A DNA stretch of 64,000 nt from Ulota crispa (lineage: Eukaryota > Streptophyta > Bryopsida > Orthotrichales > Orthotrichaceae): the NCBI GenBank assembly GCA_963920765.1, contig OY987248.1, positions 2,361,001 to 2,425,000 of the forward strand, read 5' to 3'. A model generated the notes under the pieces. That model was not told the DNA's origin. It saw only the letters and a list, made by a program, of their open reading frames with translations, and did not search any database. The position numbers and the translations under genes are program-made. This document shows, piece after piece, positions 24,920-58,544 of the stretch (its first letter is position 1; each line of letters opens with the position of its first letter).

Positions 24920-25856
24920 TTAACCCCTAAAGGACCATTGTCCCTATGGGGGCCAAATGGGATTTTGGGCATGTACCTATGGCTAAATTACTTTGTGTGA
25001 TTTTTTGAAACTTTTATTGAAGATGGGGAATTCAAATATCTACATGGGCATCTAATTTTTCCTTTATTTTGACAATTATTAAAGAAGTTATGCATGAATT
25101 TCTAAAAACTTTTGGGATTGGGTAGCCAATTTTTTTTTTAAATAACATTTTTTCAAAATAAAAATCTGAAATTGGCTCCTTAGATTTATGTATATGTGGG
25201 GAGCTTTGAATCATTTGATTTCAATTTACGTGTGAAAAGTTTTAGTTTGCGGGTAGGTATGGAACTCCCATACCTCCATTCCTTTTGCCTTTGGTACTTT
25301 ACTTTTTTGTGCTCTTTGTGATTTTTTTTTTACTTCTTTTTTTTCCCAGTTGTAGTAGACTAAGACTCCTTGGTTTTGACCGTTTGGATCAACGTAATTC
25401 ATATTTCTCAATTTTACATAAATCCTCCAATTTTGCCTAGTGTATATGCAAATTTCATGGCCTTACGGCATTGCAAGATTTTACAAAGTATGATTCACAC
25501 CTCCAAAGCATTTGGAAATTCTCCCACACATACCTAACTTGGTCTTGTACATGAGAAAAATAAACCTCAAGTTTGTGTAAAGCAAATTTTTTTTTATCAA
25601 TGGTCAAAGGCTTATGAAAATTTTGGGCAGTAAGGAAAAAAAAAAAAAAATTCCACTTTGGATGTCAATAACTTTCTTCACTATGTCCAAAATGTCCTAA
25701 TTATTTTCCCACAAGTACCTCTAGTAGTCTAGTGCAAGATCTTACGGTTGGACTTTCAAAAAAATAAATTTTTTGTACCTCTCTACTTATTCCCCCAAAA
25801 GTGGCAGATTTCAGTGATTTTCATAAAAAAAAAGGGCTTGGTCCTTTAGGGGTTAA
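24920..25856. mobile_element. TTAA-flanked element with piggyBac-like ends (937 bp)
   Basis: Begins TTAACCCCTAAAGGACCA and ends TGGTCCTTTAGGGGTTAA as perfect inverted ends. The interior is AT-rich and non-coding. Its left 300 bp are homologous to the truncated copy at 42866. Confidence 0.85.
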
Positions 25857-26064
25857 GATCAACCGTTTTCATAGTGCTCTCTCAATGGAATGGATTCCTT
25901 CTTAAATATTCCCTTTTGATTTGAATTTATGTTGTTCCCAATAATTTTGGGTTTAGTTAGTATGAATGCTTGAATCAACATGTCTTTTCTCAATAGAAAA
26001 GACATGATCAATGTTCGATCCATTAGGGATCTTTAGTATCTACACATTGATCCATTGGTGGTCT

Positions 26065-26474
26065 TTAACCCTTTAACGACCGGTCGACCAGTTCTAGGTC
26101 GATTATGACTCTTTTCCATTTGTAAATAAAGCATGTCAAGGAATTTGATGACGTGGCAAAGGGGACAGGTCTGGGGAATTGGAAAGTGAAAAGTTTAGGA
26201 CAATAATCAAGGTAATCTGAGGTGGCATGTGGCCAAAGGGTTGAAAAAACTAAAAGAGTACCGGCTAAAAATACATCTATGAATGCAAAAAGATGGCCAT
26301 AAGAACTAAAGAGTGAGTATAATTCATGATGCATAACACTAAACCTTGCAAGGTACTTCCATCTGTACGATCAACTTTGTGGTAGACATCTGTATTCAAT
26401 AGTTTGAAAATTTCCCCCAAATGGCCATACAAAGGATTGCACCCCAGAATTGACCATGGTCGTTAAAGGGTTAA
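26065..26474. mobile_element. TTAA-flanked element with piggyBac-like ends (410 bp)
   Basis: Begins TTAACCCTTTAACGACC and ends GGTCGTTAAAGGGTTAA, a perfect 17-bp inverted pair. The interior holds no supported gene; an 89-codon open frame on the minus strand shows no recognisable features. Confidence 0.85.
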
Positions 26475-27890
26475 TAGTTGCTACAAATTGTTCACACAAA
26501 TTCAAATACATATATAAGATTTTAGACCTGGTGCTAACAGAAAAGAATAAAGATTTTTTCTTATGTTGGGTTAGCTTAAAACACTACAAAAAATCATGAA
26601 CTTTCTTGGAGCTCAAATCAGGATGCACAAATCTTTTGATCCATGTTGAGGCCTCAAGCGAAAACGCACATACTTCAAACTCAGTCAAGATTTTCATGGA
26701 AAGTCTGCAAACAACATTTTAATGATTTTTAATTCCGTTTCAGAAATTTTGTTTCAAAGATTGTCTTTAATAACAAATTATTGCCCCTCTTCATGATTTC
26801 TTCGTTTTCATTTATGTAGTAAGTGCCATAAAAAAATTATCATAAAATCATCTTATGAATATGTGCAAATTGTGCTTTTGTTTTTTTTTTGTTGTTGTTT
26901 TTTTATTTGTAAAATTAGTACTTTGGAGGACACCAACACAGCTCCTTATGGTACATTGATGTCTTGTCGATTGTGAATTTTGGTGGCATTAGCTTAATTT
27001 CCAACCTTTTGAACTGAAACATTTTCATAAATAATAAAATTATAAAACAAAAGTTGGGGGCAATGCAGTTTGGAACTCTCCTACAAGGAGGATTAAGTTT
27101 AGGACTCAAATTATTGGAAGAATGCAATGGAACATAAACAGTGTATTATGAATATTTGGAATCTCATTGACTATTGAATTAATTTCTATTTTGTACAAGG
27201 TAGGAGGCTCTAAAAGCGACCATGTTTTAAATGTATTTTTTATCTAGGAATGTCTTTCAACAATAACAAATTTGGTCAAAAACAATTGTAGCCTTTCCTA
27301 AATCACATATGAGCCTTTAGAGTGATGCCTTGAGCTCCTCTTACCCTACACCCAAATCAAAATTTACTCAGCAACTTGTTGGTTTATATTGGAGGGAAGA
27401 ACTCAAATATTTTGTAATATTTTTTTGAATAATCATGGTCATTTACAGTACGTGCCTAGGAAAATTGCATTATAAGGGCATCTGTAATGGTCACCTAGAA
27501 AACTCCCGGCAAAGATCCCGGTACTTTAGTCTGGTCTTTTGATAAACAAGGAATTTGATCATAAATTTTTAATGATTTGAAGGGAATTGAAAATAATATT
27601 GTGAAAACGTAATAATGTTTGGGTTTGGACATTGCATGATTTAGATATATCCCATCAAATGTTAACTAACTTCCAAAAAACTTAAAGGCACCTTCAAATC
27701 AAACCTAAATAAGGAAATTTTTGTAAAGGGGTTGGCACATTCTAAAATGTCACATGAAGACAAATATCAATTTATTCCTCCAATACATTCCTTCTTTCTT
27801 ACTTTCACAATAAAATAAAAGTTGGAGTGGCCTCGTCAAGTTGTCTAAAAAGCATAAAATTAGAATTTTAGCAATTAAAGTCTAAGGAGC

Positions 27891-28192
27891 ACTACACTGA
27901 ATATTGCATTTAGGTTGCCTTGACAATTAGGTTGCCTTACCACGGTAAGTTACCTCATGACTCATCACTGTCACTTTGAGGTGCATGCAACTCTCTGAAT
28001 ATTTGAATTTCACATGGTTTACAACGTGGAAGTTATTAGTTTGTCTTGTTGCAGCTTCATTGTTATTGACAAGCCCTTGAAAACTAATTATTGCAATAAT
28101 TTTTGAAATTATTGTAGCAACTGTAAGTATTTATATAGTGTGGTATGTCGAGAAATTAGTGTGGGGCAACCTAAACGCAATATTCAATGTCG
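27891..28192. mobile_element. MITE of the AGGTTGCC family, copy A1
   Basis: Inverted ends: ACACTGAATATTGCATTTAG on the left and CGCAATATTCAATGT on the right, with GGTTGCC and GGCAACC just inside them. About 300 bp, non-coding. This is the most abundant family in the window, with about ten copies, and shares an interior with words such as TTATATAGTGT. Confidence 0.8.
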
Positions 28193-28200
28193 AGATTGAC

Positions 28201-28512
28201 TAAGGTAGGAGCACCCATAAGCGTCAGTGTCCCCATAACTGTCACCTCTGAAATCTTGGAAAATCTGTGGAAGTGAATAGATGTAATGACAAGGATGCAC
28301 AATATGTGAACATAAAATCTTAAAAGTGATCATGGGTGCAATGTCAATTTGCTCTTTAAAAATTCACAACTTATTCTCACAGTATCCAAATAATACATTC
28401 AAATGTGCAAACTCTTTTTTTTTTATTCCTAATAGGATCTTATAATTTGCTAGGTGTTTATTAATAGCCATCATGTTTAAAACCCTTGACGTTTATGGGT
28501 GCTCCTACTTTA
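28201..28512. mobile_element. TA-flanked MITE of the TAAGGTAG family, copy B5
   Basis: Left end TAAGGTAGGAGCACCCATAA, right end ATGGGTGCTCCTACTTTA. Interior is homologous, inverted, to the elements at 29036 and 32094. It begins 9 bp after the preceding MITE. Non-coding. Confidence 0.8.
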
Positions 28513-28912
28513 CAGGCTGGGGACCCACTCGATTCTCCTTTATTTGAGGTGGAGGCAGCAGAGTGCCAGATTCCACTACTTAAATATAGTCTAGCAATAA
28601 ATCGAAATGTTTTACAAATGAGCTCCTGCTTCTGATAAACACATTGGATGAAACTGTCGAATGTGGACGAAAAATAGTATAATATTTGGATGAACTACAC
28701 TGAATATTGCATTTAGGTTGTCTTGATAACTAGGTTGCCTTATCTTCAAAAGTTATCTCATGGTTCATCCTTTGATCACTTGGAGGCACACTCAACTCCC
28801 TAGTTTCTAGGATTTTATATGGTTTATGACATGGATATTGTTAATTACTTTTTTTGCAACATCATTGCGTTGCTAGGACTATAATAAATTGTTTATTGCA
28901 ATAATCATTGGG

Positions 28913-29616
28913 AATTGCTAACGTGACACCCTAAATTGCTAATGGGACACCCCATGTGATCATGATCTGTGATTTTTAATGCTAATTTTTTTATTTGGAT
29001 CAAAAGATTTGTTTCACCTTTATCATTCTAAGGCCATGAGGTACGAGCACCCATAAGCGTCAATCTAAGGGTTTTGAACATGCTACGTATTAGAAATCAG
29101 CTAGCAAATTATAGGATCCTATTAGGAACAGAAAAATAATGAGTTTGCAATCTTGAATGTATTATTTGGATACCTTGAGAATAAGTTGTGAATTTTTAAA
29201 GAGCAAACTGCCATTGTACCCATAACCACTTATAAGATTTCATGTTCACATGTTGTACATCCTTGTCATTACATCTATTTACTTCCAATGATTTTCCAAG
29301 ATTTTAGAGCTAACGGTTATGGGGACAACGTTGCTTATGGGTGCTCCTACCTTACTAAAAAAATGTGTGCTTGAACTTGAAACAAAAAATATAGGACTTT
29401 TGAGTTACTTAAAGCAAAATACATCAAAAAATAGTCTTGGTGTAATAATATTTCAACAAAAGTTTGTATTTGTCAAATTTTCTTTCAAAGAGGTGGTAAT
29501 GCTATGATTGAATGAATGATTGACCACTTGAATAAATCAAAATCAGCATTAAAAATAACATTTCATGCTCACAGGGGGTGTCCCTTTAGCAATTTAGGAT
29601 GTTGTGTTAGCAATCC
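28913..29616. mobile_element. MITE with ATTGCTAAC ends, nested in A2 and itself interrupted
   Basis: Inverted ends of about 40 bp: left ATTGCTAACGTGACACCCTA, right the reverse complement form ending TGTTGTGTTAGCAAT. A second internal AAATTGCTAA motif repeats the end inside each arm. It interrupts A2 and is itself interrupted by the TAAGGTAG-family element at 29036-29354. Confidence 0.75.
29036..29354. mobile_element. TA-flanked MITE of the TAAGGTAG family, copy B6, innermost of three nested elements
   Basis: Ends GAGGTACGAGCACCCATAAG and TTATGGGTGCTCCTACCTTA. The interior matches 28201-28512 in opposite orientation and 32094-32411 in the same orientation. Non-coding. Confidence 0.8.
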
Positions 29617-29717
29617 CCTAATTAGTGATGAAGGTTATTGTAGCAGTAGTAAATATTCATATAGTGTAGAATGTCAATAAATTAGTGTGGAGCAACCTAA
29701 ACACAATATTTAATGTA

Positions 29718-30861
29718 CTGGTTTCCATTCAAAATATACAAGTACATGACTTCACCATAATATTTAGGGGGAGTTTGCGCTATGTCCCATGTTGTGTTCA
29801 AGGAGATTTTGAGCTTCTTTGATAAATATCCTACATTTTTCTTTTTTAACTAGTTCTTTTAGTGCATGCATTGGATATTGCCTATATACTTATATTATAA
29901 TTAGACACTTTCTAAAAATTCAACTAACTCTTATCAAATTCATTCAGATATCAACCTATTTTTTGACATCTTATTTGGCTAATTTTCTATTGTTTTTTGG
30001 ATCCCCCACCTCCCATAAAAAGGCTTATTGGATTTTGCTTATATGACAACACTTTTTGAGAATTTTGGACCAACTTTCAGCCAGAGTTTCACCAAATTTT
30101 TGTTCAAAACACTCTTGACTTTCTTAAGCATTTTGTTTTGCCCTTAGTGACCCAACAAAACTATGGCATTGAGGTCAAACTTTCACATAAAAAAGTAGGG
30201 CATATTTTGAACAACCACTTAGGGCAGCTTTACACTCTAGCTATCAAGGTTGAAAACTTGGGATCAATTTAACCAAAATTTCAACCCAAATGGCCTCAAG
30301 AACATACCCAAGTGCCCATTATGATATTTGTATATTGAGAGCTAATTCTCTCATGTGTAAAGGCCTTAGGCCAAAAAGTTGAGGCCACTAGAACAAAGTT
30401 TGAAAATTTAAAGAGAAAAGGGATTTTCTTTTTAAACCCGAGGAGAGCCATTGATATTTTTACTCCATCTTATGGTACCAAGCATCTCAAAAGATTTTTT
30501 TTTGTTCAAATAATCATATTTCAATAAAACCTAACAATGGTCTTAGAATCAAGAATTGGTTTCACATTTTTAGAGATCCCTTTTTGAAATTGGGGCCATG
30601 TCAAATCTTGTTTTTTAAAAATTAAAGCTTGTTTTTAAAAATCAGCCTAGATTCCTATTATAAAGACCTTGAGATTGTTTTCAATTATTAACCAATGAGA
30701 TGCCAGCATTGGGAGTGTCACATGCTAGAAACTAGTCTCAATTAGTGAAGTAGGAGATGCATAAATCAACCATTTTCTAAATATATTCCCTATTTAGGAA
30801 AGAGTGACATGTTCATTCACATATCTATTACTATCATTGATGAGTTAGTAGATTTAAAATC
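29718..30861. other. No gene or classified repeat recognised
   Basis: AT-rich sequence with many short open frames and no inverted ends that I could pair. No coding feature is supported. Confidence 0.55.
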
Positions 30862-31822
30862 TTAACCCCAAAAGGACCAAGTGGCTGTTCAACAGCCACT
30901 TGAGAACTCGGGTAGGGTCATATGGAGTTAATTTTTATTGGATGTTCTCAAAATTGTTACACAAGGTGCAAATATGTATCTCCCAAGTGGAAATCTAATT
31001 TTTCCCCAATTGGATGCTCGGTTCAAAAGTTACGTTGCCCAAAAGAAATTGGGCAGTTCGGGCAATTTGAGCATCTTGGGAGAATCTTATGCTAAAACTC
31101 TCATTAATTTTTGAAGTTTGGCAAGTATATAACTAAAAAACATGGTGTACAATTGTCAAAAAAAAAAAAACAAATTGAGGACTCACATCACATTCTAAAG
31201 GGAGTCAAACTTTGTTAACTAAGTTTGGGTAGCTTCCAGAAAAAAAAATCCTCTAACTTCAAGCCCCATTATCTTTCAATTTATAAATCTAAAGCTCTTG
31301 AAATATTTGTTCACATATTCCAAATGTTTGTCTCCAACTTTTCACCTTTCAGATTTCAAATAAAAGACTTCCACATTGCACAAGAAATCATGAAAGAATG
31401 ACTAATGTATTGCCAATTCACTAAGCCTCCTTGCATTGGAGGGTGATTTAGAATAAGCTAGACTCTATATTTGCATCTGAAAATTTTTGTGAGTGAACCT
31501 AACATCATATACTTGTGAATGGTCAAAAAGCTCAAATTTGTATAGAGCAAAAATTTTACTCTAGGAAGGGTCAAAGTCTACCGACCTTGTTTTGCAGGAA
31601 TGAAAAAAAGCTATTTTTTTCACTTCAAATGTTATAATCTTACAATCCGCAAGGTCAAATGGGCTGAATTTTTTTGCACTTATTAACTTATCTATTTGAC
31701 ACACTTTTGTACGGTTGGAATTGAGAAAAAAGGTTTTTATTTTAAATTTTGGACAATGCACGAAAAGTTGACAGTTTCTGAAATTTTTTCTTAAAAAACA
31801 CCCCTGGTCCTTTTGGGGTTAA
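30862..31822. mobile_element. TTAA-flanked element with piggyBac-like ends (961 bp)
   Basis: Begins TTAACCCCAAAAGGACCA and ends TGGTCCTTTTGGGGTTAA, perfect inverted ends. A short local palindrome (AGTGGCTG..CAGCCACT) lies just inside the left end. Non-coding. Confidence 0.85.
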
Positions 31823-33822: not shown

Positions 33823-34475
33823 TTAACCCCTAAATGCCTAAGGCCTTTTTTTAGCTTCTAGGAATTTGTTCTAAACAAAACAAAAAGTCAACATTTTGAT
33901 AAGTTGTATCAATTCTTTTTAAATTGTAACCGTTCAAATTCAAACTAGATGTATTAGACATCACATAGGAAAAGAAAACATAACAATATTGCTTTTGGAT
34001 TGAAAGATTATAATGTTTTATCAAAAGGGTGTTAAAATTGCAAAAATGACTTCAAGTCTTTCAATCATCATTTCACATGTTAAATCTAAAATGTCGGTCA
34101 CCAAAAAAATATGAGATTAAAAAACATAACATACATAACTCCAATCCATTTACAGCTTTTTAAAATCTCTTTTACAAATTTTTTAAATGAATTTCTAGTG
34201 TAAATTTTTCTCCAAGATCTAGTGTATTTGAGGCTCATTTTCATGAGATCTCAACACTAAAAAAGTCAAGATTGCAATGGACACCCTTGCAAGAAAATCT
34301 TGATTAGAGAATACACAATCAATAATTTTCAAAATTAGGTTATTGATGCTAAAACTAGACTCCAACAAAATAATCTAAAGTACTAAATACTAAAAATAGC
34401 ATCTTAGTTAGGGTTTATCAAATTTCAAAATATTGTCGGCACCAAAATGTGGTGCCTTGGGCATTTAAGGGTTAA
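33823..34475. mobile_element. TTAA-flanked element with piggyBac-like ends (653 bp)
   Basis: Begins TTAACCCCTAAATGCCTAAG and ends CTTGGGCATTTAAGGGTTAA, inverted with few mismatches. The interior is collinear with the element at 57353-58310 and serves as its empty site, lacking the 324-bp insertion found there. Confidence 0.88.
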
Positions 34476-34969
34476 TCAAATCTAAAACTAATTATATATT
34501 TGAAAAGCTTAGAAAAAGGGGCAAATTGCATTAAAGTTTGACATAAGTCTAATAGGGGGAAGTGTTAGAAAGAAAAGCATGTGAAAAAAAGCATCAAGTT
34601 ATGGTTTAAATGCTTTTTAAATCACTACAAGTTTATCAACCATTTATCACCAATATACTCTCAATCTATTCTCAATGTACAACATGCTTGCGGTTTATGA
34701 GACAATTTCAAATTCTAAAAGGTGGTTGAAAACCACAAAGATGTTGATTATGTTGATAAAAGTTGATAATTATGGCATACTAATTTGTGCAAAATTGCAT
34801 TTGACATGGATAGAAAGCATGGATTAAGAATATTCTACTCTTCAAATTCTAATACATTTTAACCCCCTTAGCACACTTTTCAAATATGTAATCACTTTTA
34901 GATTTGATGAAAAATTGAGTGTGCGGGAGGAAATTCAATGAGGACTGCTCCTTTATGTCCAGGACTCTA

Positions 34970-35960
34970 TATACAAGTCTTGTAAACCCATTTACCAAGG
35001 TAAATGAATAGTGGTGAGATTTTAAGTGGGGACTCAACGTATAAATCTTTTCATGTCAATCTACATCTCTTCTAGTTTTAAATTTCAAATTTAAATTTAA
35101 AAAATATTCAAAGGGGTTCATTTCAATTGTCTTTTTGTCTCCCTCTCCACCCCTTTGTATTCCATTTTGAAATACAAATTAAGAGCTATCTAATAAGGTT
35201 CATTGAGAATGTCCTTTCATCTTTCAAAGGTAAACCAATTATTCAACTATTGAATGGATAGGTTGCAACATGAGTATTTTTATAAATGTTAGAAGAGTCT
35301 TGTAAACCTATTAACCAAGGTAAATGAAGGCCCGAGCATATCTTATGTCCCATCCACAGTGTTATTAGTTTGCTTGTGTACCCTAGAATACACATTTTTT
35401 TATAAATCTGAGTGTTTGAGGCTTCTAAATTCAAGTAGTTTAAATTTTAAAATATATATATATTTAGCAAATTTGAATGGTCTTTGAATCGAATCTAGTA
35501 AAATAAATGTATATGCCATTAATAGATTATGTCAGAAAAACAATATAAAAATATTTGAAATCAAATTTAAAGAAATAACCAATGGCAATCATTCAATTTT
35601 TTGAATTTAAATCAATTTTCCTCTTCATCTCCCCTTTGTATTTGAATTTCAAATCCAAGTTATACAAATATTTAATGGTTCCACCGTGAGATGTCCTTTC
35701 ACATCCAACCTCCATGTCATAGCCCTTTCATTTTGCCCCTTGGCCCCTAGCCAATCACAAATTAAAAGATAGGCATTCTTATTATTGGTAACATCGGTGA
35801 ATAATGATAGAACCAACACGTCGCCAACGTGAGTTTTTTTATTAATTGTAAATAGATAAAATAAAAGGTTCATTGAGAATGTCCTTTCATCTTCCAAATA
35901 TCAGGTAACTGGTCATTTGACTCTTAAACGGACAAGTTGCAACATGAGTTTTTTTATAAA
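34970..35960. repeat. Degenerate direct repeats, period about 0.67 kb
   Basis: GGTTCATTGAGAATGTCC occurs near 35198 and near 35868, in each case followed by a GTTGCAACATGAGT word and ATAAATG. A second pair, AGTCTTGTAAACC plus ACCAAGGTAAATGAA, occurs near 34976 and 35296. The arrangement suggests a decayed tandem or a direct-repeat-bounded element; I could not find its ends. Confidence 0.6.
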
Positions 35961-36380: not shown

Positions 36381-36484
36381 TTGGGATTAGATGTTTGAAA
36401 ATGGCATTGAGCTTTTTTAACAAATAATGGGCTTGGGCATTTGAGGGTTAAAGGTATGGCAACAAGAGCAAAGATGTGCAAAAA

Positions 36485-36648: not shown

Positions 36649-36964
36649 AATAGTGCATTTAGGTTGCTTTAAGAACTAGTTTGCCTTAACAATTAGGTTG
36701 CCTAACCTTCAAAAGTTACCTCATGACTCATTGCTTGACCACTTGGAAGCAAATGCAATGGTTTAGATACTAGGATTTCACATGGTTTAAGATTGAAATG
36801 TTGATAGCTTGTTTCTTAGTAACTTTGTTGTTGTTGCCAAGCCCTTTAAAGCATATTTATTGCATGAATTATTGAAAATAATTGTTGTAGTTATAGTAGG
36901 CATTTATATAGTGTAGAATGTTGAGAAGTTAGTGTGGGGCAACCTAGACGCACTATTTAGTTTA
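36649..36964. mobile_element. MITE of the AGGTTGCC family, copy A4
   Basis: Complete copy with inverted ends TACACTAAATAGTGCATTTA and GACGCACTATTTAGTTTA. It is immediately followed, head to tail, by copy A5. Confidence 0.8.
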
Positions 36965-37277
36965 CACCAAATAGTGCATTTAGGTTGCCTTAAGAATTAG
37001 GTTGCCTTACCTTGGCAAAGTTACCTCATGACTCACCCTTGGCCACATGAAGGGGCAACTCTCTTTATGTTATAGGAATTCCTTGTTTTGTCTAAAGTTC
37101 CAATTTCCTTGCTCCTTGCTTTTGGCGCTTGTTGTTGCACCCAACCTCGACTTGCTTCTTCCATTGTTCATCACATTAATTAATGACAGAAATTATTGTA
37201 GTCTTGGTAAATATTGAAATAGTTTGAAATGTCAAGAAATTAGTATGGGGCAACCTAAATGCACTATTTGGTGTAGG
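36963..37277. mobile_element. MITE of the AGGTTGCC family, copy A5, tandem with A4
   Basis: Complete copy with inverted ends TACACCAAATAGTGCATTTA and AATGCACTATTTGGTGTA. The boundary with A4 is shared to within a few bases, so one copy inserted at the very end of the other. Confidence 0.8.
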
Positions 37278-37984: not shown

Positions 37985-38292
37985 TACACTCAATAGTGCA
38001 AATAGTGCATTTAGGTTGTCTTACCCTAAAAACTTACGAAAGTACTTGTTGTTTGACCACTTGAAGGTGCATGTGACTCTATATATTAAAATTTCACATG
38101 GTTTATGGCTTGTATGATGCTAATATGTTTTTTCAATGTATTGTTGTTGTTGTCAAGTCCTTATTGTTGTTAAAATATGTTTATTGTAGTAACTATTGAT
38201 GCAAACTACTATGTTATCAACAAGTATTTATATAGTGTATAATATTTAGAAATTAGCATGAGACAACCCATAATTACACTATTTAGTGTATA
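37985..38292. mobile_element. MITE of the AGGTTGCC family, copy A6
   Basis: Left end ACACTCAATAGTGCAAATAG, right end ATTACACTATTTAGTGTA. A further short fragment of a family end (AGTGCATTTAGGTTGCC) follows to about 38318, suggesting a second, truncated insertion. Confidence 0.75.
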
Positions 38293-38319: not shown

Positions 38320-40124
38320 TCCCCAATCCAATTGTGACTCATGCCCGGGAAACCTTGTAAAGACTATTAAACAAGGCTTCACTCAAAAAAGGGGCTCCAA
38401 TGGAGTTGTTCCTTGCAAATGTATTTTGCAGACCTCTCGACATAAGAGCCCCTCCCCTACATTTTTGCACACTATGGAGAGTCCTGAATAACACTTCAAA
38501 GTGTGTAATTCTCTGACCATGACACAAGTTTTTGATTTTTTTGACATGAACCTCCTCACATAAAGTACCTAATCCAGTGATCTTCCACTCAAAAATGCAT
38601 AAAAAAATAAATAGTTATGTTTAGTGTGTGTCAAAAGCCTATTTGCATTGGGGGCTGGCAAGATGGGAATTGCCCATGCCTTGTAATTGGGCCGCACTCA
38701 GACACTATCTAACAACATGTGGACCTTTGACATGGCTAGATTGAGGATGCCCTAAACCCCAAAAGGTATTTTAGAAGAAGGAAAGTCCAAAACTGCCACT
38801 AATGGATGATTTATTCAAAACCCAAAATAATAACTTTGTTTCTGACTTTTAACCATACAAATGCATAATATACAAGCACAATAATGTGCAAAAAAAAAAT
38901 CAACCCATCTAACCACGTGTATTACAAGATTACAATAGGATTAAAAGATTACAACATCATAGTTCCACAAAAAGTCCTTTTTGGCCCTCCCAAAATGAAT
39001 AGCAGATTTTGATCCCCATGAGTTGTTTTTTTTTTGCTCTACTTAAATTCAAGGATTTTGGGCATTCATAAGTACGTGATGTTAGTTCAATCATGCAAAA
39101 TTTTAGATGCATTGAGATGTCTAACTCACTATAAATGAGCCTATAATACAAGGCGGTCAAAAAAATCAACTATACACTAACCAATTTTAAAGATATCTTG
39201 CATACCATAGTCAAAATTTTCCTTCTTTCAAATCCAAATGGTCAAATGATGTAACCCCATATATTCTATAGGCATAATTTTTTTTGAAGAAAACTACTAA
39301 AGCATGCAAAGTTATGCTAATTCAAGCTTTGCTACTATAGGTAATCTTCAAATCTCCTTCATGAATAAAAGAAGATGGAAAGGAAGATAGACTTCCTATA
39401 TGCCATGATGTTTAATAAAGAAAAAACTATTTTACAAGCCCCATGCTTCAACAATAAGCTACTAAACTTCTTTGATTTAGCAAACTAAACAAATTGCTAG
39501 TTGCTAAAAAACTTCATTACAAATGGCTAATATCGGCTTCTAAAAATGCTACACAGAAAACCCATTTACACTTTCTTTCCTTTGTGGCTGAATTATTATC
39601 ACAACATTTTTCAAAACATCACCTATGGCCGTACATATATTTCCCATTGCAGTTTTGGTCAAATGTGTAAGGTTGTATCTTACTATCATTGCAAAGCAAA
39701 CAATTTTTATTCAAATTAGAGATTGAGGGGTTATAATACCCATTACGACTTCTTGGTTTGTTGCAATTTTGCCCTTTTTAATCATGTAAAAGAAATTTGC
39801 ATAATCGCAGATGAAACTAGAGATGAGTCATCAGCCTTGGCCGCTCTTCACCATTCTTACATTCATGAACATACATGACAAACATGTTCACCATTGTCAT
39901 GGCTAGTAGAGAAAAACATACTCCGCCAAGTCCCTTGCCAAGTCTCCCACCAAACCCCCCGCCAAAACCCCATGCCAAGACCTTTACCCACACCCCCACC
40001 AAGATTATCATTGAAACTAATTTTGGGCATATTTTTTTCTTCACTTCTTTCCATTTGCACCAAGTTGCCCAAGCAATTTGCATCATTTCAAACATCATAA
40101 ATTTCTATTTGAGCATCCAATTGA

Positions 40125-40778: not shown

Positions 40779-41309
40779 CACTAAATACTGCAGTTAAGTA
40801 GCATAATTAGGTTGCAATGCATTGACAATTAGGTTGCCTTATTCAGGTGTGTTTCCTTGTGATTCATCACTTGGTCACTTCGAGGCATTCTCTAGATATT
40901 TGAATTTCAAGATTCACAACGTGAATGCTGCTAGTTTGTTGTTGTGAGGCCCTTCAACCCTTGAGCGTCCCAGCAATAGGATCCTATCGTTGGGGCCCAT
41001 AACTTTATCTTATCTTTTCTCTTAATTTGTATGGTGAAAAAAGTCATGTCTGGTCCACATCAACAGAGAAGGTGATCCTTTTTCAAATCCTACAGTCACT
41101 TATCTAAATGTAATTTTCCAAGCTGTGGTGGCCATTAAACCCCCATTTTTTCCTAAATCCTAAAATAACTCTGGACACTCAGGGGTTAAAAGTTGTGTGT
41201 TGCAATAAATTTTTATGAAGAATTGCTATATCAATAGTACATATTTTACATAGTGTAAAATGTCAAGAACTTAGTGTGGGGCAACCTAAACGTAATATTC
41301 AGTGCAGAC
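40779..41309. mobile_element. MITE of the AGGTTGCC family, copy A8, split by a TTAA element
   Basis: The halves 40779-40953 and 41190-41309 join into a normal family member. The insertion falls where unbroken copies have a TTTAAA or TTGAAA word, for example after AAGCCC in copy A4. Confidence 0.78.
40954..41189. mobile_element. TTAA-flanked element nested in MITE A8 (236 bp)
   Basis: Begins TCAACCCTTGAGCGTCC and ends GGACACTCAGGGGTTAA. It is about 230 bp and clearly homologous, in the same orientation, to 58307-58544. Comparison with intact A-family copies shows a single TTAA-like site in the empty state and one at each end in the filled state. Confidence 0.85.
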
Positions 41310-42865
41310 TCTAAACCCTCAAGTTCAACATGCCACACGACTTGGGTGTCGGTGTTTACTGTAGTTCTGAAACACATGGTAATTCGTGTGAGTGTACTTT
41401 CATCATTTTATAATTAATGTCCACTCTTTTTTCCCATTTTGTAAACAATTTGACTAGTTAAAAATATAATACACACAACTCATGTGGGGTAACTGTACTG
41501 TTATCAAGGTTGTCTGTGAAAGTGATAGTGATAGAGGTCTGTTGTGATAGTGCAACTACTGTAGCTGATGAGCAATACAGTGTTTTATTCACACATGCTC
41601 AATGGCACCTGCACTAACTTATCATAATAAAACTGGGCTCCGTTTTCTGCACATCCGTCGAAGTACGGCCAGGGTGGAAAATATTAATTTTTTGCAAACA
41701 AGGTTAAAAGTAATAATTTGCTTCCTATGTTAACCATCTGTACATAACATTGTTCACTTGGTTTTATTCCTCCTCCCAGTTATGGAGGGATATTCCCCCT
41801 ACATACATAGGGAAGAATTTAGTTATAAATCCTCAAAGTTAATTGGTCCGCGGTCAGAGTTAGCGGATGGCATTTGCTGGAGACCCTCATATTTGGGGAG
41901 CAAAAGGGACCCCTAATGAAGGTTAATAGTGTTATGTATCCTCCTGCACAGTTCTAGGCTAAGTTGGGGTATCTAAAACCCAAAAGCAAAATCATAATTC
42001 TCTAATTCAATATACTAATGATAAACGTCTAAACTCTTATACTTTTGTGGTGGATAAAAAATCCAAGCTTTTCCACTTTGACCCACATCAACGTAAGTAC
42101 AGTAAGCCAAGCAGTAAAATTGGTGTCAAGGTGGGAAATCTTAGTATTTCTTGAGTAATAATTTGACCCTTGTGTCGGGTTGGTTAATTTTATCCTCCTA
42201 TGTGGTTCTAGACAAAATCAAATTTTTTAATTTTAAATATGAAATTCCTAAATTTAATATCTTCACGGAAAATATCTAAACTCTTTTATTTTTGGCTGGT
42301 GAAAAAGTTGAGATTATCCACCTTTGAGCCCACAAAATGGTATGCCATCTAACTCGAGTCCTAAGAGTGTCAGCTTATTGAATGTGAGTGATGGATGACA
42401 TTAAACACTTAGAGTAGGTCCTACATGACAGGGATGAATTACATGCAGGTACAAATAGAAAGAAGATTTTGTATGTACTTCGATTATGTGACTAGTTTGA
42501 TCAATGAATGTTTCGTGGTTTTTAATCCGTAAACGTCGGCGCGGACGAAAAACGTTCGTTGCCTCTGAAAAAACTCTGTATCCCAGAAAAAGATTGATTT
42601 TGATCTGATCTTTTTTCAAAAGTGATAATAAAAGCGTAGTGCATCATGGAAGGTAAAAAATTATCTCTTGAGATACATTCATTTTATTTTGTAACTTAAA
42701 TTGTGATACATGGTGTTAGATCTCAAGCTGCCCTTCTTGCAATTTTCATGAAGGCACCATGCACTGTCGATTTTTCCAACTTTTTGAAATAATGCTACTG
42801 GTGCCCATGTGCAAAATACTGTAGAATGCTACAGGTAGGGCAAGCCACGGTGATCCATCCGTCCT

Positions 42866-43200
42866 TTAACCCCTAAATCCCTGAGTGTCCCCTTAGGGGA
42901 CAAATGAGATTTCGGGCAGGTACCTATGACTAAACTACTTTGTGTGATTTTTTGAAACTTTTATGGAAGATGGGGAATTCGAAGATCCGTGTGCACATCT
43001 AGTTTTTTTTTCATTCTGACAATTTTTGAAGAAGTAAAAAATGAATTTCTGAATTTTTTTGGAGATGGGGCAATCCAGGCAGCCCAAAACTTTTTTTAAA
43101 TTTGCATTTTTTCGAAATAAAAATCTGAAATTGGTTCTTTGAGTTTACATATACATGGGAAGCTTTGAATCACTTGTTTCCAATAAATGAAATGAAAGTT
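42866..43200. mobile_element. Left part of a TTAA-flanked element
   Basis: Begins TTAACCCCTAAATCCC and is homologous over about 330 bp to the left part of the 24920-25856 element (shared words include TGTGTGATTTTTTGAAAC). No matching right end was found, so it is truncated or rearranged. Confidence 0.65.
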
Positions 43201-44003
43201 ATGAGGACTTTTAGTTAACTTGTAGATACGGCTCTTAAGAAGGCTTTGGAATCAAAACATGTAAAGATAGAAGAAACTATATATATAAAATCCAAAAAAT
43301 GGGAAAATTTTGTGTTTGGAAACTTCTTAAGTCATAGTTTATCAAGCCTCAAAGGCTATAAATAAAAATGCTATCCAACCCCTTGCACTCTTAGAACCAC
43401 TTCACATAATGGTCAAAGGTTAAGAGTCATCAATTTCCACTAATCAAATTACAAGAAACCAATATTTTGGCCATTTGAAATCAAATGAATACTTTGGCCC
43501 TTTGATCCTTTACACCAAACACCAAAGTCCAAATTTTATTGCCTCCAAATTGCATGAGTAAAAGCAATGGCATCTTGAAATAAATTTTGGCCGTGCAAAA
43601 ATGAAAACCCAAACTATGGTCAAGAAGAAACTGATTTCATTTCATAAAATAATCAAAATGTTATAATATCTTGGCCAATATATTGGGAGGTTTAATAAAT
43701 GTCATGGAGGTGGACTTTAGGCTTGGTCTTTGGATGCTTCACACTATGGTTGTACAAGTCAAGAGGCCATGGACATTCAACGCCAAGGGTTTTGTTTTTA
43801 AACTTGGCCTTTAAAAGCTTCACATTAAGTTTGGTAAAAGGTTTTGTAAATGACATTTTATTCAATATTTTTGGCCCATTTCTCTTGCCAATGAGCAAAG
43901 TTTGACCTCTCAAATTCACTTCCTCTCAACTTGGTTGGCCATCATGTGAAGCAACCTTCAGGATTGACACCGAGCTCCTTTGGTGTTAGACTTTAGAAAC
44001 TAC
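43200..44003. other. No gene recognised; intergenic DNA
   Basis: AT-rich DNA with short frames on both strands across the same bases (about 43690-43920); neither shows a recognisable domain or splice signals. Confidence 0.5.
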
Positions 44004-44324
44004 ACTAAATAGTGCATTTAGGTTGCCTTGCACTATTTTTTTTTGGCATTCTACACTATATACATAATTATTGTTACTACAATAATTTTCGTCAATAATT
44101 ATTGCAACAAACAAGTTTTAATAACAATAAGGACTTTGCAACAATAAGGACAATGCAGAAGAAAAAAACTTACAACGTCAAGACTGTAAATCATGTGAAA
44201 TTCTACTATTTAAGGATTTACATGTGCCTCCAAGTGACAAAGTGATGAGTCATGAGGTAACTTTCCAGAATAAGACAACCTAAATGTTAAGGCAACCTAA
44301 AAGCACTATTCATGTGTAGATTTC
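44004..44324. mobile_element. MITE of the AGGTTGCC family, copy A9
   Basis: Ends TACACTAAATAGTGCATTTA and AAGCACTATTCATGTGTA, inverted. The interior reads in the opposite orientation to copy A1 (CATGAGGTAAC to the right). Confidence 0.8.
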
Positions 44325-46311: not shown

Positions 46312-46544
46312 TTAACCTTTAAATGACCATAGGGCATAGTATATACGCTGATGTGTAATTGTCATTTGCTATCAATAAGAAATTTTAATTTGGGATCTTA
46401 AGTAGCTCACTAAGATTGCATTGATCTATTCTCCAACTTCTTTGTTGATTTCAAATGTAATAGAGGTGTGAATTTATTTCAAAAACAAGAAAATACCCCG
46501 TATTGTACTGGTTACAAAGGGCCTTTTGGTCGTTTATGGGTTAA
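46312..46544. mobile_element. TTAA-flanked element with piggyBac-like ends (233 bp)
   Basis: Begins TTAACCTTTAAATGACCA and ends TGGTCGTTTATGGGTTAA, inverted with few mismatches. Non-coding. Confidence 0.75.
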
Positions 46545-47161: not shown

Positions 47162-47392
47162 TTAACCAGTGAAGGACCCTTGGGCTCTAGAGATACGGTA
47201 CTAAATATGGTTGCAATTAATATTCAAAAGTTTGAATTAGTTGAAAATTAAGTGTTACAATCATACATATTGAAGGGTTGTACGATGATGGGTGCATAAT
47301 TTTTTTGGAAAGCCCTCAGAACAGCTCAAATATAGTTGTATATACGACCATACATATGGCCAAAAATGGCCGATGGGCCGTTCAGGGGTTAA
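47162..47392. mobile_element. TTAA-flanked element (231 bp), sister of the 52993 copy
   Basis: Begins TTAACCAGTGAAGGACCC and ends GGGCCGTTCAGGGGTTAA. The interior is homologous to 52993-53213 throughout, sharing TTAAGTGTTACAAT and TTGAAGGGTTGTA words. Confidence 0.82.
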
Positions 47393-49099: not shown

Positions 49100-49117
49100 G
49101 CTACACAGATTGTATGT

Positions 49118-51324: not shown

Positions 51325-51688
51325 TTCACCCCTAAATGCTGGGCTGGCCACGGTGGTTGCCCTCTAATGTAATGCCACAGTTGTGTGGCAAGTACCCACC
51401 CATTATGATGTTTTTTTCAAAAGTTGCAGAAGTTAACAAGACATGTTGCCCTCATGAAAATTGTAAGAAGAGTTGTATGAACCATAATACTATGTTTGTG
51501 AATCTTTCTCATAGTTTGAGTTACCCAAAAATATGAGTGCATAATGTGAGGTTTTGTTTTTGCCTTCCACAATGGACCATGTATCCATGATCAATCCTAA
51601 AAAAACATATAAAAAACAAATTTTTCCATCCTACAATTTTTTTTTGTTGTCTTTACAAAACCCATCCACCTTGGCGTTCAAGGGTTAA
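51325..51688. mobile_element. TTAA-type element, left TTAA mutated (364 bp)
   Basis: Left end TTCACCCCTAAATGCTGGG, right end CCACCTTGGCGTTCAAGGGTTAA in its last bases (GGCGTTCAAGGGTTAA). The ends pair imperfectly. Non-coding. Confidence 0.6.
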
Positions 51689-51937
51689 AGGAGAGGTACT
51701 ACAAATTCAAAAAACGCAAAGCACATTTCAGAAGAAAATTCAGTGATAACCTTCAAACCAAAGTTGCCAACAATCCCCCCATATGGTTAGATCCTCATAG
51801 ATGGATCTCTTCCATATGCTACAATTCTCGAGCATCAAAAGTGCGATGATATCACGCACTCGATACACGCAAGTCAGCTAGCTACACAATGAATTCAAAG
51901 TCATAACTACATATTCAATGTACAAGGATTCTAGGAA

Positions 51938-52992: not shown

Positions 52993-53213
52993 TTAATCCC
53001 TGAAGGGCCCTTGGGCTCTGGACCTACGGTACCAAATACAGTCGCAACCAATATTCAGAAGTTTGAAATCGGTTAGAAATTAAGTGTTACAATTATACAT
53101 ATTGAAGGGTTGTATGATGGTGGGTGTATATTTTTTTGGAAAGCCCTCAAATACGTCTGTACATATAGTTGTACATACAGTAGCAAAGGGCTTTTGGGCC
53201 GTTTAGGGGATAA
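52993..53213. mobile_element. TTAA-type element (221 bp), sister of the 47162 copy
   Basis: Begins TTAATCCCTGAAGGGCCC and ends GGGCCGTTTAGGGGATAA; the right TTAA has become ATAA. Interior matches 47162-47392. It shares its right boundary with the next small element. Confidence 0.78.
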
Positions 53214-53288
53214 CCCCTAAATGCCTGAAGCACCAAATTTTAATAAATTTTACACTAGAATTTGGTACCTCATGCATTTAGGGGTTGA
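53210..53288. mobile_element. Very short TTAA-type element (79 bp), internally deleted
   Basis: Left end ATAACCCCTAAATGCCTGA, right end GCATTTAGGGGTTGA. These are the ends of the 33823 and 57353 family with nearly the whole interior missing. Confidence 0.65.
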
Positions 53289-53454
53289 GCAGCTGCAACA
53301 ACGGTAATTCAAGTGACATTCGGCTTTCTTGCAAAGGAGACGCTAGTGACAAGACTATCATGCTTGTACATAATTCAAATGCCAAAAAAATATTGAGATG
53401 CAGCATGAGAGATCAAATGAGCGATTGTTAAGAGTTTTAAAGAAGGGAATTGAT

Positions 53455-53850
53455 ATGTGCACACTCTAGGTTTGATATATGCATACCATGTGGGGGGGTA
53501 AACTTTAGCTATTTACCATCAATAAGCCGAATTTGAAAAACTTGAACTCGGATGTGAATTTAGAAACCTTGATTTAGTCTAAAACCACATAGGAGGCTAC
53601 AATTGAACAACTCTAATGGAAAAACTTAGCTAGGGGGCAAATTAAGACTTTTACCCTTGTCTGTAAAAAAAGCTAAAAATTTCATTGGGCGTTGTTCAAT
53701 TATAACCTCCTTCATTTTAAACTAAATCAAGATTTTTAAATCTGAATTTGAATTCAAATTGTCCAAATTCAGCTTGTTGATGGTAAATAACTAAAATTGA
53801 CCCCTACCCGGTGTGCGTATACCAAACCCAGGGTGTGCACATATCAACTC
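53455..53850. mobile_element. Foldback element related to 51938-52432, with 9-bp target duplication
   Basis: Inverted arms of about 190 bp begin GGGAATTGATATGTGCACAC and end GTGTGCACATATCAACTC. TTTAAAGAA (or TTTTAAAGAA) flanks it at 53446-53454 and 53852-53860. Arm sequence shares the TGATGGTA, TTCATTGGG and GTTGTTCAATT words with the 51.9-kb element, so both belong to one diverged family. Confidence 0.88.
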
Positions 53851-54039
53851 TTTTAAAGAAATGATAAACAACATGACAAATACATGTGAGATTGTGACGA
53901 AGGCCATGAATATCAATCAAACATTCTTAGCCTTGTCGCCCCCGGTTTTGCCCTCTGGGCTTTCTTGCAAATCTTTTTAGCCTTCACAACTTTCAATATA
54001 CCGCCTCCCTTTCTTGCGGCAGAAGAGAAGACAGAGACA

Positions 54040-54209
54040 ATGCCAGGCAGCGGCAGCAAAAGTGGAGATGAAGGGTTAAGTTACGCACAAGTAAGGGCCA
54101 TGATTCGTGAGGAAGGTCGAAAGAAGCGAGATGATCAAACCAGGAAGAAGGCGGGCAAAGCCAAGTTGGTAGACAAGGACACTTGCCTTTCAAAAGCCAT
54201 GTCAGTGGT
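54040..54209 (+). CDS. Possible short or first exon, highly charged, unidentified
   Basis: From ATG 54040 a frame runs 60 codons to TAA at 54220-54222. It encodes a Lys/Arg/Glu-rich sequence (for example YAQVRAMIREEGRKKRDDQ) unlike the surrounding AT-rich DNA. A consensus donor GTG|GTAAGT at 54208 suggests an exon end, and a MITE starts at 54220, 10 bp further. I found no partner exon. It could be a gene remnant, the 5' end of a transposon gene, or chance. Confidence 0.25.
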
Positions 54210-54219
54210 AAGTAGTAAG

Positions 54220-54532
54220 TAAGGTAGTGTGCTCGTAAACCGTTCATGTAGGGGCTGAAACTGAAGTTTGGGGAGGTGAAACTTTTTGAAATAATTTTCA
54301 GTAAATTTTTCTTGGCATTTATCCCAAGTGTTTTCATATTTTATGGAGTTTTGTGGAATTAGTTATGAAATTTTGAAGTGGAAAGGGCATAGGTGCTCTA
54401 AAACCACCCATCTCTCAAATTTTTGTCCCATGTACATTGTTGAAAGGCTATGAATAAGACATGTGCCAACACAGTACAATTGGGGAGGTGAGCGGTTTTA
54501 GAGCATGAGCGGAATATGAGCAGACTACCTCA
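54220..54532. mobile_element. TA-flanked MITE of the TAAGGTAG family, copy B8
   Basis: Begins TAAGGTAGTGTGCTCGTAAA and ends GAGCAGACTACCTCA. The interior is the reverse-orientation relative of the element at 471-792 (shared GGGGAGGTGA, TTTTAGAGC and AAATTTTGAAG words). Non-coding. Confidence 0.78.
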
Positions 54533-55314
54533 CTCTATAAGGACAAAGCCTCTTGTTATATAGTTGCTTGTTCTGTTTTGGTGGCTAAGGGCTGTTCACA
54601 CTTCACACTACCGAGCATTAGAGCATCTCCAGTTCTCCACCGATTTGGGCTATTTCAAAGTTTTCCATTTGTGTTGGGCGGCTCTCAAGCTCCTGGGTCT
54701 CCAGCCATGCTCTTCAAAAAGGTGGCCTAGCTTGCATTCCAACATGCCTCATAAATAATCATTTGATCACTTATCAAGGAAAGTAGAGGATAAAGCTCAC
54801 TAAACTTAAGATAAATAGTGTTTAATAGTGTCTTGAAGGGCCCTTGCTAGACACAAGCTAGAAATTGTAAGACACAATGTCAATAGAGGGTTTTGAGAGG
54901 GCCCACAGCACTTTTCATCCACTTTGAATGTGTTGGAGTCATTGGTGGAAATGCTCTTAGTAGAATGCTATAATGTGAGCAGGATCTGTGATCCGTGAGC
55001 CGTGAGCATGGATTTTTTATTAGAATAGATTTTGTGAGGATTTGCAAGACATAGTAATTTGATTATCATTTAAAAAGTTGTGATTTTTACAAGTTGGTTT
55101 GAGAGATTTGACAACACTTGGGTTTACAACAATGCAACAATCATATGAAATGGGTTTACAATTATGCAACAATCATATGAAAGAGGAAGAAGCTTCACTT
55201 TTGTATTTGCGAAATTGAAAAAGACAAAGAGCTATATTACATTACTAGAGGCTTTTGTCCTCACAACATGAAACATATAGTATAACATGAGCTCATTTCA
55301 TCAGTTGCACCAAA
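54533..55314. other. No gene recognised; intergenic DNA
   Basis: AT-rich DNA without supported frames. A 64-codon plus-strand frame near 54564 has no recognisable features. Confidence 0.5.
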
Positions 55315-55323
55315 TTTATTCAA

Positions 55324-55494
55324 GGGAAAATTTCATGGAAATCCTTGAAGTTTGCAATATTTTCATAGGTACTCTTGTTTTTTCAGAAGTACAACGCCTA
55401 ATTTTTTTGGTCCAAGGGTATTTGTGATGTTTTTGAAAAAGCAAGGTATCTATGAAAACATTGCAAACTTCAAGGGTATCCATGAAATTTTCCT
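55324..55494. mobile_element. Mutator-like MITE, copy 4, internally deleted, with exact 9-bp duplication
   Basis: A 171-bp version retaining both ends (GGGAAAATTTCATGG and CATGAAATTTTCC) but lacking the central half. TTTATTCAA is duplicated at 55315-55323 and 55495-55503. Confidence 0.93.
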
Positions 55495-55503
55495 TTTATT
55501 CAA

Positions 55504-56192
55504 ATGTCCTTGCTTTCACTTACACAACACTTTTGTTAACACAAAGCCTCCTTTCCCTCTACCACACTTACCAATTGACAAACTTGATAGGTCCTGCCAG
55601 TACATGGTGTTTTTAACTAATTTTGAAACATAATAAAGTCACAAATTATTACTCATACGCAGAGTGTTGAGAAATCTTCTGATGTTTTGCACACATTATA
55701 TGAAACTTATTGGGAGATCTATGTAAAAAACTAAGAGATCTATGTAAATTATTGGGGGATTTATGCAACTCAACATTAGGAAATTTCTCAATGTTTTGGT
55801 AACCAGATCCTTTGTTACATGAATAGTCCAAATTTAGTTAAATATGTTACCAATGGCATTTATTTTTTTAAGCTACATATAACAAAAGCTTTACAAATAT
55901 TTCTATCTTACAAAAAGCCTATAGGAAATTTTAAATGTACAACTCAACCTTACCTAGATCTTATAGCAAATAATAATAATAAAAAATTGCATGTTGTCAA
56001 AAATGCATTGCAACTATCAAAGCAACAAAAAAGGCTTATGTAGAAATCGGCAAATTTGGTTATTTTAACCAAAGTTTTGGGAACCACCTTATACTAAACC
56101 AAAAAAAAAAGGAGAAAGAGGAAGATAGAAAGGCTAACCTATAGTTGGACAATAACCTTTTTTTTTTATCAATCAGTAGAGTTCCAACATCC
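55504..56192. other. No gene recognised; intergenic DNA
   Basis: AT-rich DNA with three GGGAGATCTATG-like short repeats near 55710-55765; nothing coding is supported. Confidence 0.5.
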
Positions 56193-56568
56193 TTAACCCT
56201 TAAACATTAAGGCCGACGTGAAAGATCCATTGGTTATTGGAAAAACTCTCCATAGGATGGAGAAAAATCAAATTTCATTTAGTAATTTTTAAAATTAATC
56301 ATGAGCACATGGTCTATCATGGAAGGCAAAAAAAAACCTCACTAAATGTACACATTTTTTTAGGTAGCCCAAATAGTGAGAAAATTTAAAAACATGTTGT
56401 AAGGTCCCATGTTGTCCATTTTGCAATTGCAATTTTTACCAAGTCAGCATGCACTATTGACTTCTGCAACTTTTGAAAATAAGAGTACAATGAATGGGCA
56501 CTTGCCACACTACTATAGAGCACTATAAAGGGATAGTCACAATGACCAACTTAGTGTTTAGGGGTTAA
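56193..56568. mobile_element. TTAA-flanked element with piggyBac-like ends (376 bp)
   Basis: Begins TTAACCCTTAAACATTAAGG and ends ACTTAGTGTTTAGGGGTTAA, inverted with some mismatches. Non-coding. Confidence 0.72.
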
Positions 56569-57352
56569 TAGTCAAGAAAAATTTAGTCCTAAATTTTGAA
56601 TGAAAAAGTGTGCAAACAACATTTTCAAACTATCTTTGTCCTTTTGGCACAAGTAAAACTTATATAAACAGATTGTCATATAAAAAACTAGGTTGACAGC
56701 ATAAATGATAGCCTGTTGCTTTTGTACATTGTAAAAATTTGTGATTCACTGAAAGTTATGATAATGAGTTGCAAGAGCAAGATAAACATGTGATCCAACC
56801 CTCTAAATGCAACACTTAACCAAATTATTTTTTGGGATCGTGAGGAAACTTTCTCCCGCCAATAGAGATGCCTAAGCAAAAAAAAAAAAACTCCAAATCT
56901 ACATAAACTCATTGTAAATATTAGATTTTTAAAATGGTTTTGATTGAGCCTGATAAACGTGCTAAATGATAATTTGACATAGATTTTACATTTTGAATCC
57001 GAGCTAATTTAGGAGCAGCTTTGTGACAATGGAACCATCCAGCAAATAGTACTAAAAGAGACCTCAAAACCCATGTGACCCCAAATCTCTGGAGTAATAA
57101 GTTAATGCTTAAAAAACAACAAATAAGTTACACGCCCCAAATTTACAAGGACCTGCACTCCTGCTGCAGGCCAGATCCTAGAATTCCCTTGACCAGGGCC
57201 AGAGTGGCAGGGACAGTCCAGGTCAGCGTTCACAAATGCGGCTAAATTTAGGAAATACTATAGTCAGTTCTGTTTATTGCGAGGAATACAACTTGTGGTT
57301 AAATTGGAAAATTCCAAATACAAAAAGCAGTGCTTCGAGCCACTTGAGGTAA
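56569..57352. other. No gene recognised; intergenic DNA
   Basis: Unique AT-rich DNA with a GC-richer patch near 57150-57240 that shows no frame or homology that I recognise. Confidence 0.5.
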
Positions 57353-58310
57353 TTAACCCCTAAATGCCTGAGGACATTTTTGAGCTTCTACGAATTTGCT
57401 CTGAACGAAAAGCGAACTTTTTGTTAAGCTGTGTCAGTTTAAAAAAAAATCGTACAAATTCAAACTAAATATGTTAGAGATAATATAGGAAAAGAAAACA
57501 CAACAATATCACTTATGGATTAAAAGATTATAGTTTTTGATAATGAGGGTGTTAAAATTGCAAAAATGACTTGAAATCTTTCAATCTTCTTTTCATATGT
57601 TGAATCTAAAAAACTAGTCACCCATAAAATACAAGGTTAAAGGATATAATATACATAACTCTAATCACCTCACAACTTTTCAAAACCCCTTCTATAATTC
57701 TTTAAAATGAGTTTCTAGTGTAAATTTTTCTCCAAGACCTAGTGTATTTGAGGCTCATTTCCAAGAACTCTCAACACTACAAAAAGTCAAGATCCTTACA
57801 CAATATCTTGAGTAGAAAAATCATAATCAATCATTTTCAAATCAAATTTTAGATGCTAAAACCAGACTTCAAAAATAACAATTCAAATATATAAACTACT
57901 AAAAATAGCAACTTAACTGGGTTTATGGGGAGATTACAAATAGGGGCTCACAAATGAAAAATATTATAAATAGTGGCACAATTTAAAGATAATTACAAAT
58001 AGGGGCACAATTTCATATAATTTTTTGTAAATTCTTGTAAACTTTAGGTTTGGACATTGGTTGGTTTAGATACATCACATTGAATGTTAGCTAACCTCCA
58101 AAAAACTTAAAACTTTTCCAAATCAAGCTTGAAAAAATTAGTAAAAGGATTTTGAAATTGTGCCCCTATTTGTATTTATTTTGAAGTTGTGCCCCTATCT
58201 GCAATATTTTTCATTCTTTTGTGCCCCTATTTGTATTTTGTAATTTTCCATAGGTTTATTGAACATATTGTTGACACCCAAATTGGGTGCCTCAAGCATT
58301 TAGGGGTTAA
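57353..58310. mobile_element. TTAA-flanked element with piggyBac-like ends, carrying a nested insertion
   Basis: Begins TTAACCCCTAAATGCCTGAG and ends CTCAAGCATTTAGGGGTTAA. Outside the nested segment it is collinear with 33823-34475. A 324-bp element interrupts it at 57927-58250. Confidence 0.88.
57927..58250. mobile_element. Nested element with inverted AAATAGGGGC repeats and probable 9-bp duplication
   Basis: Ends GGGGAGATTACAAATAGGGG and GCCCCTATTTGTATTTTGTA plus AATTTTCCA. TGGGTTTAT (57918-57926) and TAGGTTTAT (58251-58259) flank it and match at 8 of 9 positions; the uninterrupted relative at 33.8 kb has only one such word. Three GGGGCACAA-type repeats lie inside each arm. Part of the interior matches 27620-27740. 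Confidence 0.8.
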
Positions 58311-58544
58311 CCCTTAAACACCCCAGCAACGGGATCTTGTCATTGGGGATCACAAATTGATCTCACTTTTTCTCTTGATTTGTACTGTGAAAACAGTTGT
58401 GATTGGTCCCCATCAGCAGAGAAGGTAGTCCTTCTTCAAATCCTACGGTCACTTTTTCTGATTGTAATTTTCCAAGTTGTGGTGGCCATTAAACCCCCAT
58501 TTTCTCCTAAACCCTAAAACAACTCCGGGCGCTCAGGGGTTTAA
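58307..58544. mobile_element. TTAA-flanked element (238 bp) sharing a TTAA with the previous element
   Basis: Begins TTAACCCTTAAACACCCC and ends GGGCGCTCAGGGGTTTAA. Homologous to the nested element at 40954-41189. Its left TTAA is also the right TTAA of the 57353 element. Confidence 0.85.

Follow-up and report, generated by a model that had tools for sequence, protein, structure and literature searches.

A 64-kb stretch of the Ulota crispa genome (contig OY987248.1, positions 2,361,001 to 2,425,000; hereafter the window) contains a cluster of TTAA-flanked elements between positions 24,920 and 58,544, and raises the question of which kind of transposon left them there. A preliminary description, made from the letters alone, listed 12 elements and two partial ones and read them as piggyBac-like; all of these are present in the sequence. 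We recognised fifteen accepted or probable elements, comprising 6790 bases in all and about a fifth of the 33.6-kb stretch. They are probably old, short, non-autonomous miniature inverted-repeat transposable elements (MITEs) of piggyBac type in a land-plant genome, moved in trans. We favor this reading because of their inverted ends, the sharp boundaries at TTAA, the single tetramers in paralogs, and the occurrence of common ends on unrelated interiors.

Paired inverted ends

The hexamers TTAACC and GGTTAA were scanned throughout the window. TTAACC was found 21 times (dinucleotide-shuffle mean 21.0) and GGTTAA 24 times (mean 23.7), i.e., at the chance level, as would fit inverted matches arisen by chance in intergenic DNA rich in A+T. 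However, pairs of these hexamers spaced 50-1200 bp apart and having at least 14 of 18 inverted matches numbered 8; 300 dinucleotide shuffles averaged 0.043 such pairs, and none had more than one. At 12 of 18 matches there were 11 pairs vs. 0.56 by chance (100 shuffles). Five families moreover have repeated copies that stop at TTAA. Chance origin has a negligible probability, and was rejected for the paired elements because pairing is far above that in shuffles; the weakest ends (the solo end at 36451, 43423, and 42869) may reflect chance or decay. A looser search, in which TTAA alone was fixed and 11 of 14 inverted bases beside it were required, gave 11 pairs (0-3 per shuffle; 30 shuffles). 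Seven of these had a CC start. The other four had an A-rich start (6119, 28356) or the GGCAACC start of another repeat (36608, twice).

Alignment of 28 ends revealed the consensus TTAA-CCC(C/T)TAAAnGnCC, a common end of ~18 bp. The tetramer columns were conserved in 25-27 of the 28 ends (first base T and fourth base A in 27 each), and the three bases following TTAA were C in 26, 28, and 26 ends. In eight elements the inverted ends showed 14-18 matches in 18; excerpts of the description of piggyBac-type elements (PMC2872659) give inverted ends of 12-19 bp and a terminal motif CC[C/T]T. The preliminary description assigned a TTAACC(C/T) start and an (A/G)GGTTAA end to all 12 elements. This was true for seven (24920, 26065, 30862, 33823, 46312, 56193, and 57353), and the remaining five had substituted ends: 40954 starts TCAACCC, 47162 starts TTAACCA, 58307 ends GGGTTTA, 52993 starts TTAATCC and ends GGGATAA, and 53210 starts ATAACCC and ends GGGTTGA. 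A hairpin just inside the ends was considered as a second recognition signal. It was detected at about p 0.05 or lower (60 shuffles each) in just 7 of 30 ends, two of which belong to the 79-bp foldback itself; we therefore claim no general hairpin feature.

Homology boundaries and unfilled sites

Basic Local Alignment Search Tool (BLAST) comparison divided the interiors into about eight families, in agreement with the preliminary description of several unrelated families of 79 to 961 bp. Five of these (F1 to F5) are represented in the window by two or three copies, the third copy of F5 being probable. No second full copy was found in the window for the elements at 26065, 30862, and 46312. The 79-bp element (53210-53288) consists of two inverted copies of the F2 right end. 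The Kimura two-parameter distance (K2P) between family copies was 0.22-0.61 in seven pairwise comparisons, indicating that movement was old.

Boundaries were examined by comparing 30 bases on each side of nine ends, two each from F2, F3, F4, and F5 and one, the left, from F1, whose right end was not used because the second copy has no clear terminus. Identity inside the boundary, a count that takes in the tetramer and the common terminal repeat, was 203/270; identity outside was 70/270, near the chance level. The inside value was higher at each of the nine ends, and the weakest was the F1 left end (16 vs. 10). When the first 20 bases were dropped and the next 60 were compared by gapped local alignment, the inside score was again higher at all nine ends (24-104 vs. 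12-22), with the smallest margin at one F5 end (24 vs. 18). One tetramer serves two adjoining elements at 53210-53213 (ATAA) and at 58307-58310 (TTAA). A third shared-tetramer junction may be present at 42866, where the neighboring F5 copy has lost its terminus.

The element at 40954 lies within an abundant repeat of roughly 300 bp having GGTTGCC / GGCAACC motifs near its ends (one copy starts CACTACAC). The element was removed, one tetramer was retained, and the flanking sequence was compared by alignment with each of the other nine copies of the repeat. The site was TTAA in three of the nine paralogs (36677-36964, 38008-38290, and 44002-44319 on the minus strand), and in a fourth (27890-28190) a one-base variant whose reading, TGAA or TTGA, varied with the aligner. 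At the site of the element at 33823, the filled copy has TTAA on both sides and the sole paralog (34842-34976, reverse) has a single TTCA. Where such a site could be read, its tetramer was TTAA or departed from it by one or two bases, and these paralogous unfilled sites support a 4-bp TTAA target. The TTAA target duplication typical of piggyBac was thus seen from paralogs alone, for two elements, and from tetramer conservation. The preliminary description looked to empty alleles as its check; the sites available here are paralogs, and they lean its way to the extent of TTAA in 3/9 for one element and one TTCA for the other.

Assignment to a superfamily

The 28 ends were compared over 13 bases with 12 published coral piggyBac-type ends (excerpts of PMC2872659). 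Summed best identity was 271, compared with 203.5 when end positions 4-13 were permuted together, and none of 2000 permutations reached the observed value. The best single matches were 12/13: 26065 and 26474 to the AmiPB2 left end, and 41189 to CMITE III. Together with the paired ends, the boundaries, and the paralog sites, the match to coral ends supports the earlier proposal of TTAA targeting with piggyBac-like CCC(C/T) ends.

The ORFs scanned gave no transposase for these elements, and Kolobok transposons, which are recorded from chlorophytes and rhodophytes, duplicate TTAA too (excerpts of PMC9587614); piggyBac and Kolobok are the two superfamilies that the excerpts name as duplicating TTAA. 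Another superfamily of TTAA-targeting MITEs, be it Kolobok or one undescribed in plants, could be the source if its ends had converged on CCC. T2-MITE / Kolobok elements resemble those described here in TTAA duplication and short non-autonomous copies; however, their termini are given as AGGRR / 5′-RR (excerpts of PMC6004289 and PMC9587614), in contrast to CCC(C/T) here. None of the 28 ends, a set partly chosen by its C-start pattern, has a purine after TTAA. Likeness to piggyBac ends, in addition, extends over all 13 bases. We consider convergence from another superfamily unlikely.

Tc1/mariner-like (TA target) or PIF/Harbinger-like (TWA target) MITEs could have landed by chance in TTAA. The tetramer contains TA, and one copy cannot distinguish TA with ACCC ends from TTAA with CCC ends; in angiosperms, the target is TA for Stowaway MITEs and TAA/TTA for Tourist MITEs (excerpts of PMC10004981). 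The outer T and A should then be free flank, yet they are fixed, as described above. In ten less-selected ends, a set that is not blind, the first base was T in 9/10 and the fourth was A in 9/10. These ends (40954, 41189, 58543, 53213, 51325, 51688, 52993, 53210, 53288, and 42522) have no literal TTAACC match, or were found via a partner copy, a position weight matrix (PWM), or the list in the preliminary description; 53210 and 53213 share a tetramer and are non-independent. TA- or TWA-targeting elements are accordingly very improbable as the source.

The piggyBac-type elements proposed here can be compared with systems known from excerpts of published accounts. They resemble Acropora CMITE / AmiPB elements (PMC2872659) in having TTAA duplications, ends starting with CCC, several MITE families, and tandem and nested copies. 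They differ in their plant host, in size (79-961 bp vs. about 100 bp), in that the ORFs scanned here gave no transposase, and in that interiors differ among families, whereas the Acropora MITEs share a conserved interior. By description, without sequences, they also resemble angiosperm PiggyBac MITEs (PMC10004981), which are non-autonomous, are classed by target duplication and ends, and have a plant host.

Several observations weigh against a piggyBac-type origin. The fourth base after TTAA is mostly C (17/28; T in 8/28), in contrast to the published CC[C/T]T motif; the same CCCC departure is found in CMITE III and in the right end of CMITE IV (PMC2872659, excerpts). Selection of the 28 ends was not blind, part of them having been picked for the TTAACC pattern or by eye in the preliminary description; the purine count by itself is accordingly weak evidence. 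The unfilled sites come from paralogs, 65-75% identical, and not from alleles. At the site of the element at 40954, five of the nine paralogs have no TTAA (TCTT twice, TAAT, GTTA, and GTTG) and are diverged or shorter there; about 8 extra bases stand beside TTAA in two of the three TTAA-bearing paralogs; and the element's own left tetramer is TCAA (the right is TTAA). Finally, a Pfam scan of 10 of 61 open reading frames (ORFs) revealed no transposase or remnant (best E value 0.13, all below the cut-off), the other ORFs and the rest of the window being unscanned for transposases. The 61 ORFs of at least 40 amino acids were taken from provisional element bounds, and one scanned ORF (53890-54078) falls outside the corrected elements. 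The ORFs that were scanned have no coding content of this kind, consistent with the earlier view that the elements are non-autonomous and that a piggyBac transposase is absent from the window.

We suggest that a piggyBac-type transposase, encoded elsewhere in the genome at present or formerly, would have recognised the common ~18-bp ends, excised the elements, and joined them to new TTAA sites, such that each copy would be flanked by one TTAA per side. Precise excision, TTAA-specific integration, and a hairpin step are described for piggyBac (excerpts of PMC7351741). We infer this chemistry for the present elements, as well as the identity of the transposase and mobilisation in trans. On the basis of their ends and target, the elements are putative members of piggyBac.

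Inventory, surroundings, and plant record

Coordinates are given in Table 1. Compared with the preliminary description, the extents of four elements were revised (40954-41189, 58307-58543, 53210-53288, and 52993-53213), and a probable 15th copy (42522-42869) and a solo right end (36451) were added. No partner was found for the solo end.

Table 1. Positions of the TTAA-flanked elements and of the repeat that hosts the element at 40954
Element	Position	Strand	Length	Remarks
F1	24920..25856	+	937 bp	18/18 inverted ends TTAACCCCTAAAGGACCA
F1, second copy	42866..43423	+		left end TTAACCCCTAAATCCCTG; right end AGGTTAA degenerate, uncertain; 77% over 320 bp (BLAST); K2P 0.37
Single copy in window	26065..26474	+	410 bp	ends TTAACCCTTTAACGACC; 12/13 identical to coral AmiPB2 left end
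Single full copy in window	30862..31822	+	961 bp	18/18 inverted ends; hairpin (arms of 11 bp) immediately inward of left end
F2	33823..34475	+	653 bp	nested in another repeat; paralog 34842-34976 (minus) has single TTCA at site
F2, second copy	57353..58310	+	958 bp	interrupted by unrelated foldback at about 57926-58246; 78% over 602 bp (BLAST)
F3	40954..41189	+	236 bp	nested in GGTTGCC repeat copy
F3, second copy	58307..58543	+	237 bp	82%; left TTAA is right TTAA of 57353-58310
Single copy in window	46312..46544	+	233 bp	
F4	47162..47392	+	231 bp	
F4, second copy	52993..53213	+	221 bp	left tetramer TTAA, right ATAA; 83% over 187 bp (BLAST)
79-bp foldback	53210..53288	.	79 bp	arms ~90% to F2 right terminus; left tetramer ATAA common with 52993-53213
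F5	51325..51688	-	364 bp	reverse orientation
F5	56193..56568	+	376 bp	16/18 inverted ends
F5, probable third copy	42522..42869	+		left end TTAATCCGTAAACG (PWM scan); 65% identity in 345 aligned bases; right terminus missing or changed at start of 42866
Solo right end	36445..36451	.		TGGGCATTTGAGGGTTAA; PWM score 22.4, inside range of accepted ends
GGTTGCC/GGCAACC repeat copies	27890-28190, 36677-36964, 36963-37275, 38008-38290, 44002-44319 (-), 62926-63223 (-)			partial copies in addition

The foldback that interrupts the second F2 copy (57926-58246) is roughly 320 bp long, has repeated ATTACAAATAGGGGCACAA motifs, and is unrelated to F2. A segment at 39031-39156 (reverse strand) showed 74% identity over 129 bp to the interior of 30862-31822 (31426-31553), and is possibly the fragment of a relative.

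Around the cluster, ORFs matched Mito_carr, Homeodomain, WSD, DUF3475, and PHF5 above the Pfam cut-off and HARE-HTH below it; four of the ten surrounding ORFs had no Pfam match. The PHF5-like ORF (7864-8283, minus strand) had a full-length profile match (E 1e-49). We take the Mito_carr, Homeodomain, WSD, DUF3475, and PHF5 content to point to a land plant. The neighboring genes are thus consistent with a land-plant host, and support the plant-lineage host named in the preliminary description. Foldback repeats of another family, their arms resembling AGGGAAAATTTCATGGATACCCCTGAAGTTTGC, flank the cluster on either side (33-366, 5395-5725, 13589-13931, 55311-55503, and 61619-62509). Because the same repeats occur to either side of the cluster, the contig looks like one genome. 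An 11-bp unit, ATTCTCACCAG, is perfectly repeated in tandem at 1720-1922 (18.5 copies, 100% matches). No Rfam match was obtained in the 64-kb window at gathering thresholds.

The preliminary description stated that piggyBac is scarcely reported from plants. This was overstated in view of plant records in excerpts of three published sources: a 2023 review (PMC10004981) includes PiggyBac among seven angiosperm MITE superfamilies, a 2015 survey (PMC4438587) places piggyBac in all taxonomic groups studied and names land plants alongside, and a table for the Ceratopteris genome (PMC6890710) gives 1230 piggyBac copies. One piggyBac entry of 34 bases is given for olive (excerpt of PMC4007544). A Niphotrichum paper was rejected as a record; its text matches were to the word "piggybacking". 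With piggyBac thus on record from plants, the elements would belong to a known kind. They would be a well-supported addition to that kind, and we do not claim that plant piggyBac MITEs having TTAA empty sites are unpublished.

PiggyBac, in wide use as a gene-delivery transposon, is well known in animals and, judging from the table entries and lists in these excerpts, thinly documented in plants. A single window here allows the target, the end sequence, and the homology boundaries to be checked together, and provides exact ends with which to seek a plant piggyBac transposase. A transposase having these ends in the genome would raise the interest of the finding, and, if a matching one exists, would help to distinguish early retention of piggyBac in plants from gain by transfer. 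It is possible, although we put this forward tentatively, that a land-plant lineage has its own long-lived piggyBac lineage that yielded at least eight MITE families sharing the TTAA-CCC(C/T)TAAAnGnCC end. If so, piggyBac would be a major, persistent mobile element in those plants, not a stray annotation.

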